Assembly (NCBI GenBank): GCA_016281255.1
Contig: JAEEIG010000111.1
Coordinates: 1 to 49,338 of the forward strand
DNA: 49,338 bases
From: Bacteroidales bacterium
GTDB taxonomy: Bacteria > Bacteroidota > Bacteroidia > Bacteroidales > WCHB1-69
Reading direction: 5' to 3'
Position numbers and translations under genes: made by a program. Positions 22,947-31,526 of this stretch are shown here, one piece after another. The stretch's first letter is position 1, and each line of letters begins with the position of its first letter. The notes under the pieces were generated by a model. That model was not told where the DNA came from. It was given only the letters and a program-made list of their open reading frames with translations, and ran no database searches.

Positions 22947-24080
22947 TTATTTTAACATGTCGAGAATGCTGTCGATGGCCGCCGAGAAGGTGGGCCAAGC
23001 GTATTTTTTCTTCTCTTCCACCACATTCCGTTCAAACTCCTCCTGCTTGTTTTTTTCGAAGAAACGACACAACGCATCGGCAATCTGCTTGGCATCGGGT
23101 TCCACCACGTAACCGATTTTCCCGTCAGGCACGATTTCGGCAAGACCGCCCACATGGGTGACCAACATCGGTTTCTCGAAGTGGAAAGCGATTTGCGTCA
23201 CGCCGCTTTGGGTGGCCGTTTTGTAGGGTTGTGCCACGATGTCGGCCGCACTGAAATAACGGTTCACCTCGCTGTCGGGGATGAAATCGGTGCAGAGCAC
23301 TACCCTGTCTTCTATTTGCAGGTCTTTGATTTGCTTGAGGTAAGGTTCCGGGTCGCCGTAGAACTCGCCCGCCACAATCAGTTTGACATTGTCCTCCTTC
23401 AGACGGCTGTCAGCAAAGGCTTCCAGCAACAGATCCAGACCCTTGTAGCCGCGAATGAACCCGAAAAAGAGCACATAGCGGTTGTCGGGACTGAGGTTCA
23501 ACAACGAGAGAGCCTCTTCGCGAGACAAACGTTCTCCATAGTGATCGTACAGCGGGTGCGGACTGAATACGGCGGGTTTGTCTTGGGTGAAGAGTCGCAG
23601 GTCGGCCAGCACCGACTTCGACATGGCCACGAAGCCGTCGGTGGGACGGATGAAGTAACGGACGAACATCTTGTCGCCGGGACGGTGTTCGTGAGGGATG
23701 ACATTATCGAGGATGGAGACAAGCCGGGTGTGTTTGTTCTTGCGCACGATGCGTGCAATGGTGCCGAAGCAGGGCGACATGAAGGGCAGCCAGAACTTGG
23801 TGATCATCAGGTCGGGTTTCTTGCGGGCGATTTCGCGTCCCACCTTGAACCAGTTGAACGGGTTGTAGGAGTGGACTTTCCGCACAATCTTGAGTCCTTC
23901 GGGCGCGGGTTCGGTGCTGTATTGCGTCTTCCCGGGGAAGAGGAAGTTCGGATATTGGTGGGTGAAGGTGTAAATCTCAACCTCATGACCCTGGTTCTGA
24001 TATTCGTAGGCGAGCCGTTCGTTGAACGCCGACAGTCCGCCGCGATAGGGGTATGCTGTTCCGAGAATGATGATTTTCAT
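22947..24080 (-). CDS. Glycosyltransferase family 4
   Basis: Starts 'MKIIILGTAYPYRGGLSAFNERLA'; 'VLFFGFIRGYKGLDLLLEAF', 'QPYKTATQSGVTQIAFHFEKPMLVTHVGGLAE'. Start revised from 24200. Confidence 0.9.
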   Translation of the reverse strand: MKIIILGTAYPYRGGLSAFNERLAYEYQNQGHEVEIYTFTHQYPNFLFPGKTQYSTEPAPEGLKIVRKVHSYNPFNWFKVGREIARKKPDLMITKFWLPFMSPCFGTIARIVRKNKHTRLVSILDNVIPHEHRPGDKMFVRYFIRPTDGFVAMSKSVLADLRLFTQDKPAVFSPHPLYDHYGERLSREEALSLLNLSPDNRYVLFFGFIRGYKGLDLLLEAFADSRLKEDNVKLIVAGEFYGDPEPYLKQIKDLQIEDRVVLCTDFIPDSEVNRYFSAADIVAQPYKTATQSGVTQIAFHFEKPMLVTHVGGLAEIVPDGKIGYVVEPDAKQIADALCRFFEKNKQEEFERNVVEEKKKYAWPTFSAAIDSILDMLK

Positions 24081-24085
24081 AATTT

Positions 24086-24143
24086 TATACGCTTTCGGGT
24101 ATAAAAACGCTGCAATTATCGAATTTATACCTTTTCGGGTGCA
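24086..24143. promoter_or_regulatory. Pair of HipB-operator-like elements (TATAC-N8-GTATA and TATAC-N8-GTGCA) in the GT4 promoter
   Basis: TTTATACGCTTTCGGGTATAAAA and TTTATACCTTTTCGGGTGCAAAA, 40 bp centre to centre; the distal one overlaps the -7 element TACTTTTG (minus strand, 24142-24149). Confidence 0.55.
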
Positions 24144-24178
24144 AAAGTACAAAAAAATGTGATGCGAATACCCTTTGA

Positions 24179-25177
24179 TTATTCGCCCCTCACAAACCAC
24201 TGTCGCCGTTGGTTAATGATGCGCCAATAGTTGCGTTTCATCTTGTCGTTCAAGAAACTGCGGGCGATAAGTTCTTTAACCACGGGTGGAAACTCCATAA
24301 AAAGATCCAAAACTCGTTCGGCTCTTTTTGCAGGCAGTCCGATGCGTTGACCAAATCGCTTGAAATCAGTCCGGCATAAATGACCTGTTCGGAGCAGGGC
24401 GTTGCTCGGCTCTATGTCGGGGGCGAGGCCACCTTTCAATCCCAAATCATCGCTTTCAAGATGGAGGCGGGTGTTCGACAGGTCGTATGCGGGGGCGAGC
24501 GCATACTCGCCATTGTGATTGATGAGCGAGAAATTCTTCAGATGCGCATCCTCGTTTGCGTACAGGTAGTTGAATAACACCAGTTTAAAGAAACGCTCCG
24601 TTTCCACCATCCATGCCGGCACAATCGTTCGAATGGCATCGGCAATCATGGCGTAATGACCGTCATATTTGAAATTGCTGTCGGCGCCCTGCTCGGTTTT
24701 GCCAAGCACCGATGCAAAATCCTCCATCGAATACTTCGTCAAGTCGGGTTTCACATCAAACCTTCGAGTGATATACACCGGTTGTCCTTTCGCGCTGAAA
24801 CACAATGCATTCGCTGCCGTCTCAATGCCATAAACCTGTGAGGCTATCTGCATGGTGAGATGTTCGTTGGCAGGAATCTGTTTACGGGTTTGGATATTCA
24901 TCAGCGGAGCTGGTTTCAAGATAAATGTCCCTTGTTCATCAGGGTTCGACAGACGGATATGACCACGCTCCACCACGGCCGAATATTTCTCCTGCACACC
25001 GGAGATTGAAAGGTTACTCTGGTTTTCTGGCAAATCAGAGCTGGCATTAATGCCATCAAACTCAAAATCCAAAACAGGTGACACCTTTTCGCCACCAAAA
25101 AGCAACTTCAGTGCCATCGGCGAATAGGCATCATACCCGGGTTGCAAAGTGGCCGGACAAACGCTAATAGTTCTCAT
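24179..25177 (-). CDS. hipT: HipT-like kinase toxin (HipA C-terminal domain)
   Basis: 'LSISGVQEKYSA' Gly-rich loop, 'YANEDAHLKNFSL' catalytic loop, 'APAYDLSNT'; lacks the HipA N-terminal subdomain; start at MRTISVCPA (ATGA overlap with the hipS-like gene). Confidence 0.85.
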   Translation of the reverse strand: MRTISVCPATLQPGYDAYSPMALKLLFGGEKVSPVLDFEFDGINASSDLPENQSNLSISGVQEKYSAVVERGHIRLSNPDEQGTFILKPAPLMNIQTRKQIPANEHLTMQIASQVYGIETAANALCFSAKGQPVYITRRFDVKPDLTKYSMEDFASVLGKTEQGADSNFKYDGHYAMIADAIRTIVPAWMVETERFFKLVLFNYLYANEDAHLKNFSLINHNGEYALAPAYDLSNTRLHLESDDLGLKGGLAPDIEPSNALLRTGHLCRTDFKRFGQRIGLPAKRAERVLDLFMEFPPVVKELIARSFLNDKMKRNYWRIINQRRQWFVRGE

Positions 25178-25500
25178 TTTTCCTCCTTCCTCAGTGTCAC
25201 ATTGCCAATGCAGTCCTTCCCGCAAATCATCTCCAACATGCCGAAAAAGTCCTGCTCATCCACCTTGAAAACCGTACACAAGGCCTTGCGGTTGGAGCCT
25301 TCGGGCAGCAGGTTGGTGAAAAACGGGAAGATGCGGCTGGAACGGTAGGGCTCCTCCCTTTTGGGCAGCGACAATGCAATGGCAGGTGTTCCTGAATCAG
25401 CCAAATATTGGGCATTATAGGCGAACTCGTAATCATCCTGATTCCGTTCCGTCAGCTGGCCTGCGAGCCTATTGCCCAAATAAACATCCACTGTTCTCAT
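25174..25500 (-). CDS. hipS: HipS-like protein (HipA N-terminal subdomain)
   Basis: 108 aa 'VDVYLGNRLAGQLTERNQDDYEFAYNAQYLADSGTPAIALSLPKREEPYRSSRIFPFFTNLLPEGSNR' matches the HipA N-terminal subdomain. Confidence 0.85.
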   Translation of the reverse strand: MRTVDVYLGNRLAGQLTERNQDDYEFAYNAQYLADSGTPAIALSLPKREEPYRSSRIFPFFTNLLPEGSNRKALCTVFKVDEQDFFGMLEMICGKDCIGNVTLRKEEK

Positions 25501-25724
25501 TTTGCGTCAAAATTATCGTACATATATCCCGTCTCTTTCGTCTGGATAACCATCTCCAACCCTAAGACCGTCATGATCTTCTGCAGCGTATGCAGCGAAG
25601 GGTTCCCTTTCCCGCGCTCAATGTCCTTCACGGTGGCGATGCCCACCTCGGCGAACTCTGCCAGGTCTTGTTGCGACAGTCCCAGTCGCGCTCTCCTCTC
25701 CTTGATAATAGCTGCAATATCCAT
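25497..25724 (-). CDS. hipB: HipB-like XRE-family HTH regulator
   Basis: 'MDIAAIIKERRARLGLSQQDLAEFAEVGIATVKDIERGKGNPSLHTLQKIMTVLGLEMVI'; start revised to 25724 because a -7 element lies inside the longer ORF. Confidence 0.88.
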   Translation of the reverse strand: MDIAAIIKERRARLGLSQQDLAEFAEVGIATVKDIERGKGNPSLHTLQKIMTVLGLEMVIQTKETGYMYDNFDAK

Positions 25725-25732
25725 TTTCTTAA

Positions 25733-25752
25733 AAGTATGCTTTATTGTACTT
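25733..25752. promoter_or_regulatory. Putative HipB operator O1 (AAGTA-N10-TACTT)
   Basis: AAGTATGCTTTATTGTACTT. Confidence 0.6.
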
Positions 25753-25758
25753 CGGCGG

Positions 25759-25766
25759 CAAAAATA
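25759..25766 (-). promoter_or_regulatory. -7 element TATTTTTG of the hipBST-like operon
   Basis: TAnnTTTG on the minus strand between the two operator-like palindromes. Confidence 0.65.
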
Positions 25767-25790
25767 CACTTTTTTTGATTGCACAACTTC

Positions 25791-25816
25791 AAAAAGTATG
25801 AAATATTATACTTTTT
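25791..25816. promoter_or_regulatory. Putative HipB operator O2, perfect inverted repeat AAAAAGTAT-N8-ATACTTTTT
   Basis: 26-bp palindrome read directly; same half-site spacing as O1. Confidence 0.7.
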
Positions 25817-25945
25817 CAATTGGAAGTCACAATTTGTGACCTCCAAAATATACTCAAAGGCAGAAACTTGACTCTGTGATTCGATGATTTAGGTTGTCAC
25901 TTAAGTTACGGTATATGATTACGGGGTGTTTGGTTGTCAACCAAC

Positions 25946-27529
25946 TTATGATTCTTTTATAACCCGCTCTATCTCACATTGATGCTTCTTGCTTTGCTTG
26001 TCATAATTAACACCTACCAAAACAACCTCGCCAACATAGTCTAATAGAGAATCGGTATAATGATTGTTTTTTATTTGATTGATAGCGGCTTGGACCGAAT
26101 GATCATATTTCAATTCAAGAACAATTGCAGGCAAATCAACATTACGTCGAGGAACCAGCACCAAGTCTGCAAAGCCTTTTCCTGCGGGCAATTCTCTAAT
26201 CATGGCATATTTGTTTTTGGCTGCATAATATGCCAAAGTGAGCACACACGCAAGTGAGTTCTCATCGTTATATTGCAAAATGCTGGTGTTGTCGGAATGA
26301 ATACGCCCCAAAGCCGCTTCTACCCGCTCAGTTTCCCCTGCAAGAGTCCATTGCAACAGTTGTTCGGATTGTTTCAATGATTCCGCAATCACCTCCCAAC
26401 CGGTGTCTTCAATCGCATTTTCGAATTCAATGCTTATTTCTTTGTTGGGGATACGGCAAGTGTTCGTGTCTCTGTCGAAGGAAAGATAGCCCAGATGAAT
26501 CAAAATGGTCAGAATGTCATTCTTGCTGTTGATCACATTCAGGTCGTTTTGGAAGTTTTTGGTGTTCACGGGGCAACTGTCACCCGCCAGCAATTTGAGC
26601 ACATCATCCTTCAGCCCTTCGTAATTCATCTTTATGTAATGCGCAACCGTTTCGTACGTACCTGTGTTTGACCAATAACTTTCACAGTAGTGTCGTCTTA
26701 CAGCTCTGATTACGGACAAAGGATTATAAATTGATTTTTGGTCGCCTATGCTATATCCATCATACCAAATTCTAATCTGCTCCTTGTCCATATCGTTACG
26801 GTCACACAAATCCGACACTTCCTCATCCGTGAAACCGAAACTTGCCGCCATCTCACCCGGCGAAATCATAGTGTATTCCTCAAAATTATTCAAGGCCGAC
26901 TGGGTATTGTATTTCTTAATCGGTAGAATTCCAGTCATATACACACCCGCAAAAACAGACAATGAGTTGCCCGACTTGAAAAGCAGACGGAGAAAATCCA
27001 CGTATCGTTCGACTTCATTGTCAGAATTAGATTCACGAAGGATGGCATCCCACTCATCCACAATCATAATAAACTTGGCAGGTTCTGCTTGCTGAACGAT
27101 AGCATATAAGACAGACAGCATGTCATCGTTTGCGCCGTATCTCACATTAGGGTAAGCCTCTCTAAGTTCTGCCAAAATATCGGCCTGGATATGATGTACA
27201 ATGTCACCACTGTTCCTATAGCGTGTAATGAAGTTCGTCATATCCACATACAACACCGGATATTTGTTCAAATGCTGTAGGAAAGAAGGGCTTTTTGTAA
27301 TTTTTAGGTCTTGGAACAACGCTTCAGAATGACATGAATGATTATAGTAAGCGTTCAGCATCTTGGCTGCCATAGACTTGCCAAAACGCCTTGCACGGCT
27401 GACACATATAAACTGACGCTCGGAATTCAACGACGCATTGACAACCTCAATCAGGTCGCTCTTGTCAATGTATTCGCCGTTTCGCGCCGCGCGAAAACCG
27501 TCATCTCCAACGTTGATATACAAACCCAT
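25946..27529 (-). CDS. AAA-ATPase-like protein with C-terminal PD-(D/E)XK nuclease-like (DUF1703) domain
   Basis: 'ICVSRARRFGKSMAAKMLNAYY', 'FIMIVDEWDAI', 'GKGFADLVLVPRRNVDLPAIVLELKYDHSVQAAINQI'. Start revised from 27985 to MGLYINVGDDGF. Confidence 0.85.
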   Translation of the reverse strand: MGLYINVGDDGFRAARNGEYIDKSDLIEVVNASLNSERQFICVSRARRFGKSMAAKMLNAYYNHSCHSEALFQDLKITKSPSFLQHLNKYPVLYVDMTNFITRYRNSGDIVHHIQADILAELREAYPNVRYGANDDMLSVLYAIVQQAEPAKFIMIVDEWDAILRESNSDNEVERYVDFLRLLFKSGNSLSVFAGVYMTGILPIKKYNTQSALNNFEEYTMISPGEMAASFGFTDEEVSDLCDRNDMDKEQIRIWYDGYSIGDQKSIYNPLSVIRAVRRHYCESYWSNTGTYETVAHYIKMNYEGLKDDVLKLLAGDSCPVNTKNFQNDLNVINSKNDILTILIHLGYLSFDRDTNTCRIPNKEISIEFENAIEDTGWEVIAESLKQSEQLLQWTLAGETERVEAALGRIHSDNTSILQYNDENSLACVLTLAYYAAKNKYAMIRELPAGKGFADLVLVPRRNVDLPAIVLELKYDHSVQAAINQIKNNHYTDSLLDYVGEVVLVGVNYDKQSKKHQCEIERVIKES

Positions 27530-27857
27530 ATTTCCAATCAATAATTCGTGGTCATCATCTATTTTAATGTCGCAAAAATACATTTTTTTTGTTTGCACAC
27601 GGTACAAACGAAAGCGCTGAAAAGCGAGCCATTCGAAATCCACTGCAAAATTACAATAAATTTCGAATGAAAAATTCATTTCGGCATTTTTTTCAAGCGG
27701 TTGTTGTTTCCGGTTTGTCCGGCTGAACTTGGGACCTGGAACTTCTTCCATTCTTAGGAAGGGCATAGAGTATCTATAGATACGCATAAGCGCCCCTCGC
27801 GAAGGCCCACTATAGAGGAAAACATATAATTTCAATAAAAAAAGCATAATTATAGCA

Positions 27858-28120
27858 TTGGTGAATACTAATGACCAAGAAGAACTCGCATTGACCCTCA
27901 TTGCACGGAAAAAGAAAATCAAGAAGGCAGATTTCATCCAAGCCATGCAAAAAGCCGATCTTTCCGACAAGGTTATCAACAACATTTTTAGAAGATTCCA
28001 TCAAAAAATCCCGGAATGGTTAGAAACGATTCAACAATCTTTTCTCCCCAAAGACTACCAAAAGGCCTACTGGCAGATGGTGTGCGACTGGTTAGCGAGA
28101 CTGGAGCAATGGTCATTTCC
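27858..28120 (+). pseudogene. Orphan HipA-family C-terminal fragment (approximate 3' boundary)
   Basis: 'KKKIKKADFIQAMQKADLSDKVINNIFRRFHQKIPEWLETIQQSFLPKDYQKAYWQMVCDWLARL' aligns with the HipT C-terminus in this window ('...PPVVKELIARSFLNDKMKRNYWRIINQRRQ'). Confidence 0.6.
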
Positions 28121-28154
28121 CGCCCCTGCAGCGCTCAACAACCCTGATCCATCC

Positions 28155-28856
28155 CTATTTCGTCGCCTCCAGAATCATGGTTTCCAAACGGTTATACTCA
28201 AAAGGAAGCGCTTTGAAATGACCTTCAACACCGATCAGGGCACTGTGTGTGCTTTCCCCCACTTCGCATGAGCAAACGTCTTTAAAACCGGTCTGCTGTA
28301 GGACTTCTGACAGCGTCTCTTTATCATAGATGATTTGGTGCCCCCACGCTGTATGAAACCGATTAATGACATACACCGCCGTAGGAGGAAGTCCGCCATT
28401 CTTTGCAGTATAAGCTATATACTCCTTGTGAAGAGGCTTTTCAGGGTCCTGATATAAGCCAAGCAGAAATCGCAAGTTAGGGGTGGCTATTCGGATAATG
28501 CCTCCCGGCTTAAGAACCCGATAGCTCTCCTTGAGCATATTCTGAGCTTGCTGATAGGTAAGATGCTCAAACAGATGTTCCGAATACACATAGTTGAACG
28601 AAGCATCCGGAAATGGAAACGGTTGTCCTGCATCCAAATATGCGCCATGTTTACTCTCCATGTAGGAAATGCCTGCGTTTAACCAACCTGCCAAGGAATT
28701 GTTCCCATATCCAATCTGTAATTTTGGTTCATTAGCGGTTTTGAAATACCGTTTTATCTTTCTATTTCTCCAAAAACTGGCACGAAACAACCGATAAGAA
28801 ATCTCTTGGACAATTTTGATTCGACCTATTGACGATATGATTCCATTCATTTGCAA
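28155..28856 (-). CDS. Class I SAM-dependent methyltransferase
   Basis: 'KLQIGYGNNSLAGWLNAGISY', 'FPFPDASFNYVYSEHLFEHLTYQQAQNMLKESYRVLKPGGIIRIATPNL'. Confidence 0.88.
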   Translation of the reverse strand: MQMNGIISSIGRIKIVQEISYRLFRASFWRNRKIKRYFKTANEPKLQIGYGNNSLAGWLNAGISYMESKHGAYLDAGQPFPFPDASFNYVYSEHLFEHLTYQQAQNMLKESYRVLKPGGIIRIATPNLRFLLGLYQDPEKPLHKEYIAYTAKNGGLPPTAVYVINRFHTAWGHQIIYDKETLSEVLQQTGFKDVCSCEVGESTHSALIGVEGHFKALPFEYNRLETMILEATK

Positions 28857-28923
28857 ATAGTGTTTAACGGTACTCTTTTTTATAGGCGTTTATGATTAAA
28901 GAGCCCTCCTTTTTTTGAAGCCG

Positions 28924-28931
28924 CAAAGATA
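28924..28931 (-). promoter_or_regulatory. -7 element TATCTTTG for the methyltransferase gene
   Basis: TAnnTTTG on the minus strand. Confidence 0.5.
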
Positions 28932-29001
28932 CTTTTTTTTCTCTTTGTTTCTATCTCCTATTGAAAGCTTATCTTAACGATTAAACAGCACATTTTTTTC
29001 G

Positions 29002-29009
29002 TACTTTTG
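29002..29009 (+). promoter_or_regulatory. -7 element TACTTTTG for the YfhO-family gene
   Basis: TAnnTTTG, 37 nt upstream of the ATG. Confidence 0.6.
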
Positions 29010-29045
29010 CAGCCTTGAAATTTGAAATAAAAAAACATCAGAAAT

Positions 29046-31526
29046 ATGAAACCGATTCTTAAGAAAACACTGACCCATTGCGGCATCATCCTCATCTTCT
29101 TCTTGGTGGCAGGTGCTTACATGTCCCCCGCCTTTGAAGGCAAAGTCATCCAACAAGGCGACACCATGAAGTGGAAAGCAATGGCCAAAGAGCAGCATGA
29201 TTTTCACGACAAAACGGGCGAATACACCACTTGGTGCAGTTCTATGTTTAGTGGTATGCCAGCCTATCAGGTCACAAACCCACCCTATAAATCTGTTTTC
29301 GGTAAGATACATAATATCTTGAATCTGAATTTTCTGAACTATGGAGGTAATATTGGCATCGTATTTCTTTATTTATTAGGATTTTACGTCGCTTTAATCG
29401 CAATAGGACTTTCTCCATGGCTAAGTTTGTTGGGGGCATTGGCTTTCGGATTAGGTAGTTATAATATCATTATTATTGAAGCAGGACATATTACAAAAGC
29501 GTATGCCATGTCTATGATGGCACCCATTATCGGTGGAATGCTATTGATATTACAAAGAAAGAAGTATTTGTGGGGCGGCATTCTCTTTGCAGTTGCTTTA
29601 GGTGTTCAAATTTCCTGCAACCACATCCAAATCACCTACTATACTATGCTTGTGGGTCTTATTCTTGGTCTCGTCTATCTCGTTTACGCCATCAAAGATA
29701 AAGAGTTCAAATCTCTACTTTTAGGCATGGGCGTTATGTTGATCGGAATTGGATTTGCTATCGGAGCCAACGCCCGATTGCTTTTCATCAACCAAGAGTA
29801 TGTGAAATACACCATGCGTGGCGGTTCTGAAATCACTGTGACACCCGAAGATTTATACAAGGACGGCGAAGCTAAATCCATCGCGGCTTCCAATGGTCTG
29901 GATATTGATTACGCATATAGCTGGAGCTATGGCAAAGGTGAAACCTACACGCTGTTAGTGCCCGGCGCATACGGTGGCGGCTCCGGCGAAACCGTCGGCA
30001 CCGACTCCGAATTTTACAAAAACTTCCGCCAGAAACAGGCACCTCTCTATTGGGGCGACCAGCCCTTCACTTCCGGCCCCGTCTATTTCGGAGCCATCGT
30101 CATTTTCCTGTTCGTTTTAGGTCTATTTGTGGTGAAAGGCCCTGAACGCTGGTGGATTCTTATTGCTACCATCCTCGCCATCCTCATGTCGTGGGGTAAG
30201 AACCTGATGGGCTTCAACAGTTTTCTGTTCTATCATTTGCCGCTTTACAACAAGTTCCGCACCCCTTCCATGAGTCTGGTAATAGCCAACGTGACTATGG
30301 TCATGATGTCGGTGCTGACGCTAAAAGCCATCTTCAACAAAGAGAATCCGGTCGATAAAAAGAAACTGAACCTCGGGCTCTACATCTCCACAGGTATTAC
30401 TGCAGGCTTTATCCTGCTGATGATGGCGTTCTCCGGGAACTTCTCTTTCTCGGGTGCCAGCGACGTGCAGATGGCTGCGCAATATGGTCCCCAATGGGAT
30501 ATGATAAAAGATGTGTTGGTGAAAGACCGCAAAGCCCTGTTTATGTCCGATTCCTGGCGTTCACTGGTATTGATTCTGATTTCAGCCGTGCTCTTGTGGC
30601 TCTACATTAATCAGAAGATCAAACAGTCTGGTATCATCATCGGTGTGTTGGCATGCTTGGTACTTTTCGATTTGTGGGGTGTGGATCGTCGCTACCTCAA
30701 CGATTCCAACTTCATCACCGAGAAGCGTCTCAAACTCAAACCCTCTCAAACCGACCAGGTTTTGGATCAATATGCCGCACAGTTCAAAGACGAGGATTAT
30801 CGCGTGTTCGACCTCTCGGTGAACACCTTTAACGACTCTTATCCTTCCGCTTTCCATCATCAGATTGGCGGTTACAATGCGGCCAAACTGCGTCGTTACC
30901 AAGACATTATCGACTTCTACCTTTCCCGACATATCAACTCCGGTGTGCTCAACATGCTGAACGCCCGCTATGTGGTGATGCCCGGACAAGGCGGACAACC
31001 CATGGTGCAGCGCAACCCTGATGCTTTGGGCAATGCCTGGTTTGTGGATGCCTATCAACTGGTGGAAGATCCCAATGCAGAAATTCTGGCACTGAATGAC
31101 TTCAATCCCGCCGACACCGCCATTATCGACAAGTGTTTCGCTGAAATGGTGCAGGGTAAGAATTTAGAGCGCGACAGCAACTCGGTTATTGTAATGGAGC
31201 ACCAGAAACCCTATAATCCGGACTATGTGGTCTATAAGACAAAGACATCCAAAGACCAATTGGCGGTCTTCTCCGAAGTCTATTATGAACCTGACTGGCG
31301 CGCCTATATTGACGGAAAACCTGCAGACTATTTTCGCGTCAACTACATCCTGCGAGGAATGGTGATTCCCGCTGGGGAACATAAAATCGAATTCCGAAAC
31401 GAAGCGCCAATGTTACACAAGTTGGACAAGGTATCTCTGATTTGTTCTATTTTATTTGTATTGGTTTTGGCAGGTACACTGGTGCTATATTACCGCAAGC
31501 CCAAAAATAATATTGCCAAACAGTAA
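29046..31526 (+). CDS. YfhO family multi-TM protein
   Basis: 826 aa, many TM segments; 'EGKVIQQGDTMKWKAMAKEQHDF', C-terminal 'YYEPDWRAYIDGKPADYFRVNYILRGMVIPAGEHKIEFR'. Confidence 0.85.
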   Translation: MKPILKKTLTHCGIILIFFLVAGAYMSPAFEGKVIQQGDTMKWKAMAKEQHDFHDKTGEYTTWCSSMFSGMPAYQVTNPPYKSVFGKIHNILNLNFLNYGGNIGIVFLYLLGFYVALIAIGLSPWLSLLGALAFGLGSYNIIIIEAGHITKAYAMSMMAPIIGGMLLILQRKKYLWGGILFAVALGVQISCNHIQITYYTMLVGLILGLVYLVYAIKDKEFKSLLLGMGVMLIGIGFAIGANARLLFINQEYVKYTMRGGSEITVTPEDLYKDGEAKSIAASNGLDIDYAYSWSYGKGETYTLLVPGAYGGGSGETVGTDSEFYKNFRQKQAPLYWGDQPFTSGPVYFGAIVIFLFVLGLFVVKGPERWWILIATILAILMSWGKNLMGFNSFLFYHLPLYNKFRTPSMSLVIANVTMVMMSVLTLKAIFNKENPVDKKKLNLGLYISTGITAGFILLMMAFSGNFSFSGASDVQMAAQYGPQWDMIKDVLVKDRKALFMSDSWRSLVLILISAVLLWLYINQKIKQSGIIIGVLACLVLFDLWGVDRRYLNDSNFITEKRLKLKPSQTDQVLDQYAAQFKDEDYRVFDLSVNTFNDSYPSAFHHQIGGYNAAKLRRYQDIIDFYLSRHINSGVLNMLNARYVVMPGQGGQPMVQRNPDALGNAWFVDAYQLVEDPNAEILALNDFNPADTAIIDKCFAEMVQGKNLERDSNSVIVMEHQKPYNPDYVVYKTKTSKDQLAVFSEVYYEPDWRAYIDGKPADYFRVNYILRGMVIPAGEHKIEFRNEAPMLHKLDKVSLICSILFVLVLAGTLVLYYRKPKNNIAKQ

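Follow-up and report, generated by a model that had tools for sequence, protein, structure and literature searches.

The three-gene operon at positions 24,179–25,724 of the window (the whole 49,338-nt stretch that was analysed, positions 1 to 49,338 of Bacteroidales bacterium contig JAEEIG010000111.1) is very probably a tripartite HipBST toxin-antitoxin module on the chromosome, from an SxS-loop subclade mostly found in Bacteroidota, in which HipS would block HipT and HipB would repress the operon via two operators. Gene structure, homology, fold, catalytic residues, conservation and the operator pair were established here. The genes are as follows.

25497..25724, (-) strand: hipB, a 75-aa Cro/C1-type HTH protein read from ATG, predicted autorepressor
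25174..25500, (-) strand: hipS, a 108-aa homologue of HipA N-subdomain-1, predicted antitoxin
24179..25177, (-) strand: hipT, a 332-aa HipA_C Ser/Thr kinase without N-subdomain-1, whose ATG overlaps the hipS stop

Both the hipB/hipS and the hipS/hipT junctions are 4-bp ATGA overlaps. On re-reading, these overlaps, the coordinates and the lengths of 75, 108 and 332 aa given in the first-pass annotation were all correct, as was the Bacteroidales host, and the Gly-rich-loop motif that it had singled out, NLSISGVQEKYS, was found in HipT. Its tripartite HipBST layout is borne out by the hipB-hipS-hipT order and by the Pfam domains: HipT matches HipA_C (PF07804) at 133.7 bits (cut-off 30.5), HipS matches Couple_hipA (PF13657) at 86.6 bits (cut-off 22.5) and HipB matches HTH_3 (PF01381) at 53.9 bits (cut-off 23). 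Against TIGR03070 (couple_hipB), HipB scored 65 bits, below the 71.65 cut-off. HipT thus lacks N-subdomain-1 and retains the P-loop, the catalytic and the Mg2+-binding motifs, whereas HipS is homologous to that subdomain, as previously proposed and as the Couple_hipA, sequence and fold matches confirm. In E. coli K-12 HipBA, the kinase core and N-subdomain-1 of HipA are homologous to HipT and HipS, respectively, but they are encoded by one fused toxin gene and HipB neutralises; here, hipS and hipT are separate in the window and in 91/91 listed relatives.

A frameshift that had split an intact hipA, named beforehand as a result that would overturn the HipBST reading, is excluded. The junctions in three loci of the same genus (L005-L007; HipT 87–92% identical) are identical to those in the window, and all 91 listed non-redundant relatives keep hipS and hipT as separate frames. 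The relatives came from an alignment-seeded scan of genome contigs (at least 80 loci); since this survey is biased to about 42% identity or more, counts such as 91/91 describe one clade and not 91 independent events. Among the matches listed, the hipS/hipT overlap is most often 4 bp (58/91 non-redundant SxS operons). A hipB directly upstream was detected in 85/91, and at least some of the remaining operons sit on contigs that stop short of that position. Moreover, purifying selection acts on all three genes, well beyond chance: the four closest copies give dN/dS values of 0.04–0.13 for hipB, 0.06–0.21 for hipS and 0.08–0.15 for hipT. Given that the relatives keep the frames separate and that the genes are under such selection, the split is real.

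Most of the listed SxS operons come from Bacteroidota; a few come from Acidobacteriota, Verrucomicrobiota, Balneolota, Ignavibacteriota and Fidelibacterota. The module is patchy in the family (12/104 genomes at E<=1e-40), and plasmid copies occur in Bacteroides and Parabacteroides (B. thetaiotaomicron, P. distasonis); this patchiness and the plasmid copies fit a toxin-antitoxin role. The three-gene layout is common in Bacteroidota and the module is of an ordinary, known kind: according to a 2023 report, HipBST_Lp homologues are widespread in Bacteroidota (PMC10653801), so this kind of system was already known. The same genome also holds an unsplit 421-aa HipA (L001) and a second SxS HipBST (L002; G000:C136, 434-2931, (-) strand), which has an SLS loop and is 48% identical in HipT. 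This second module is followed by an ORF that resembles an MBL-fold hydrolase and shares 4 bp with hipT; the operator half-sites of the module differ from those of the window module.

The window HipT carries the P-loop S57-I-S59, in agreement with the SIS-type loop claimed earlier, together with K64, K88, D210, H212, N215 and D232. Among the 91 listed non-redundant SxS operons, S57 is present in 91/91, S59 in 90/91 and each of the other six residues in 91/91. In O127 HipT (PMC9325769), alanine substitutions at K64, K86, H212, N215 and D233 abolish toxicity; because they fall on residues that are kept here, we counted this for the HipBST reading. The AlphaFold model of HipT (pLDDT 91.3, with low confidence for residues 44–55, just before the P-loop serines) matches the HipT structures 7vkc, 7wcf and 7ab4 with TM 0.75–0.83, and that of HipS (pLDDT 93.7) has HipS(Lp) 7vkb_B as its top PDB match, with TM 0.84. 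By sequence, too, the best PDB hits of both proteins come from the two characterised HipBST systems, with HipT matching HipT and HipS matching HipS. We infer that HipT is toxic, that it autophosphorylates at S57/S59 and that it acts on an essential target.

It should be noted that the module resembles each of these two systems in part. With the Legionella pneumophila HipBST (lpg2368-2370; PDB 7vkb, 7wcf, 8ezr), the best sequence and fold match for both HipT and HipS, it shares gene order, 4-bp overlaps and a HipS without Trp65; however, the Legionella HipT has an SVQ P-loop with the single Ser54 where the window has SIS, the two are ~29% identical, and Legionella HipS has I65/M66 in place of S69/N70. 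A single-serine SVQ/SIQ loop is stated for Legionella species (PMC10653801). With the E. coli O127:H6 HipBST (PDB 7ab3, 7ab4, 7ab5), it shares gene order, the SIS loop with S57/S59 at identical residue numbers, D210/H212 and the equivalent of Glu63, but Trp65, essential to O127 HipS, is absent and HipT is ~27% identical. Many HipS_Ec homologues, though not all of them, have a Trp65 lodged in a HipT pocket, whereas the window has Ser69.

In pairwise comparison with the PDB segments, which are not full-length proteins, HipT_Lp gave 124 bits with the window HipT, against 80 bits for HipT_Ec. In the sequence search of the PDB, E was 7e-30 for the Legionella HipT and 7e-17 for the O127 HipT. In a tree in which HipT_Lp and HipT_Ec are, as in the BLAST comparisons, represented by their PDB segments, HipT_Lp joins an AVT-loop type (88/68), described below, and the SxS set forms its own branch (92/94). 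The window HipT does not group with O127 HipT in the best tree, yet neither an SxS+Ec clade (p-AU 0.119) nor an SxS+AVT+Lp clade (p-AU 0.147) is rejected on this segment tree with its long branches of O127 HipT and K-12 HipA, and therefore no firm subclade placement follows. Thus, of the earlier reading as a whole, the HipBST module with an SxS loop and HipS as the likely neutraliser stands, but E. coli O127 is not supported as its model, as HipT is nearer to HipT_Lp by pairwise score, Trp65 is absent and Bacteroidota are already reported to carry HipBST_Lp homologues widely.

We therefore consider it unlikely that the module works exactly as in O127, with a Trp65-type wedge of HipS and a HipT that poisons TrpRS at the KMSKS serine. 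The gene order and the SxS loop are shared, and the host TrpRS carries KMSKS. As nearly all TrpRS carry this motif, finding it here does not discriminate, and TrpRS as a target by motif was rejected as uninformative. Against such a mechanism also stand the Ser at the Trp65 position, with Trp in 0/91 listed relatives, and the higher pairwise score to HipT_Lp. HipT_O127 phosphorylates TrpS at Ser197 (PMC6581861), whereas neither TrpS nor GltX rescues the toxicity of HipT_Lp (PMC10653801); a TrpRS target is thus not inherited through family membership and is unsupported here.

To our knowledge, only two HipBST systems, both gammaproteobacterial, have been studied for neutralisation. In both, HipS and not HipB neutralises (PMC6581861, PMC9325769). 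By analogy with these two systems, which differ in contact residue, HipS is the likely neutraliser of HipT here. O127 HipS depends on Trp65 (PMC10627512), while in Legionella HipS M66A cut neutralisation only partly and I65A had no effect (PMC10653801). In the window, S69 occupies the Trp65 position, where Trp occurs in 0/91 listed SxS operons; the neighbouring N70 is Asn in 90/91, and E67, equivalent to O127 Glu63, is kept in 91/91. Since Trp65 is absent and Asn stands at the next position, neutralisation by HipS is likely but would take place through a contact that differs from the O127 type. In this scheme, HipS, as a split-off HipA N-subdomain-1, would bind HipT over the P-loop and hold it in an outward state unable to bind ATP, with the invariant Glu67 and a Ser69-Asn70 turn replacing the O127 Trp65 wedge.

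HipB alone, or together with HipS, could nevertheless be the true neutraliser. A HipBA-like arrangement, with HipB as the principal antitoxin and HipS only supplying the missing N-lobe that completes the kinase, has a low probability in our view, about that of an O127-like mechanism or slightly below it. The homology of HipS to HipA N-subdomain-1, which is part of the kinase in HipA, speaks for it; however, HipS has the neutralising role in both characterised systems, and the 75-aa HipB ends in ...NFDAK, without the C-terminal Trp that K-12 HipB inserts into HipA (PMC10627512). Neutralisation by HipS thus remains the preferred reading.

Given that Trp is found in 0/91 of the listed operons and the two serines in 91/91 and 90/91, and that the three AVT-loop modules of sister genomes have Trp at that position, a Trp-less HipS paired with a double-serine P-loop is, as judged from sequence, a property of the SxS clade. 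We tentatively propose, at somewhat less than even odds, that the SxS-loop, Trp-less, Asn70 operons, mostly from Bacteroidota, form a third HipBST type, in which a double-serine HipT would be neutralised via an x-Asn turn, unlike both the O127 Trp65 wedge and Legionella HipS. A search of the main texts of open-licence HipBST papers, mostly by terms, found no description of the SxS and Asn combination.

The region upstream of hipB contains the following elements.

25792..25815, no strand assigned: upstream operator, a perfect palindrome AAAAGTAT-N8-ATACTTTT, conserved in L005-L009
25759..25766, (-) strand: Bacteroidales-type -7 box TATTTTTG (TAnnTTTG), between the operators, read from the sequence
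25731..25754, no strand assigned: downstream operator, an imperfect copy just before the hipB start, 61 bp from the upstream copy

TAnnTTTG is the -7 consensus of Bacteroides promoters, and the element is also present in the upstream regions of relatives. With up to 3 mismatches allowed, the window contains 2 copies of the palindrome, versus 0.14 expected. When the best repeated-palindrome pair was taken from each of 87 listed upstream regions, its spacing was 58–66 bp in 52%, compared to 13% in dinucleotide shuffles, and 61 bp is the commonest spacing (30/87 loci among the matches listed). The spacing persists although the half-site varies by subclade, with AAGTAT in the window and AAATCGCAA in the SLS group. 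In Legionella HipBST, three operators with six-nucleotide arms are found instead of a pair 61 bp apart. The pair fits HipB autorepression: HipB, probably bound to HipST, would repress the operon via the two palindromic operators flanking the -7 box.

A second module has been lost nearby. An AVT-loop hipBST2 is found close to the SxS module in three genomes, G007, G039 and G041. As seen in L017, L019 and L021 of the same genus, it has three genes in the same order, but differs from the window module by its AVT loop, a HipS with PEGW (Trp) and its own operators with CCCG cores; its HipT is nearer to Legionella HipT (175 bits) than is the window HipT (124 bits to the PDB segment). In the window, two remains were found.

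24083..24149, (-) strand: apparent orphan promoter and two operators of the lost AVT-loop hipBST2, directly upstream of a glycosyltransferase gene
27858..28115, (+) strand: remnant of the C-terminus of an AVT-type HipT2 (45% identical in tblastn to residues 229–314 of the G007 copy, E 6e-14)

In G007 and G041, the same glycosyltransferase gene as in the window is immediately preceded by the AVT-type hipBST2; in G039, the sequence after hipBST2 is not the start of this gene. The region upstream of the window glycosyltransferase is 84% identical over 125 bp to that of G007 hipB2, up to the start codon, where it switches, and the orphan operators show the same twin pattern as the hip upstream regions. 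Because the hipB2-like sequence ends at the start codon and the glycosyltransferase follows, 24083–24149 appears to be a deletion scar through which this gene took over the promoter and operators of the lost hipBST2.

A gene for a YfhO-like membrane protein is found near the hip modules in the window (22947-31526) and in L017, L019 and L021, with the contents between them rearranged, and surface-polysaccharide genes are near hip modules in some of these loci. An AAA-ATPase_like/PDDEXK_9 gene (25946-27985, (-) strand) is located upstream of hipB, and a similar gene occurs near the hip modules in L019.

The remains of this second module, and relatives in which hipT is disrupted while hipB and hipS are intact (G041, L009/L021; G010, L015; a S. 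copri plasmid, L105), could suggest that the operon is decaying, or that its kinase is inactive and kept only as a regulator. For the window operon this is very improbable, as hipT is full length, keeps every catalytic residue and has the low dN/dS given above. The disrupted copies could reflect toxin decay or assembly errors.

The window module is thus a well-formed HipBST. It belongs to a known family, and what sets its whole clade apart is the contact residue of the antitoxin. The two studied HipBST systems disagree on the importance of the HipS Trp and of the double serine; as the double serine and the missing Trp occur together across the 91 listed relatives, the two features are separable. 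Moreover, the conserved operator pair offers a direct handle for testing autoregulation, and because sister genomes carry both HipBST types next to each other, cross-neutralisation tests are possible.
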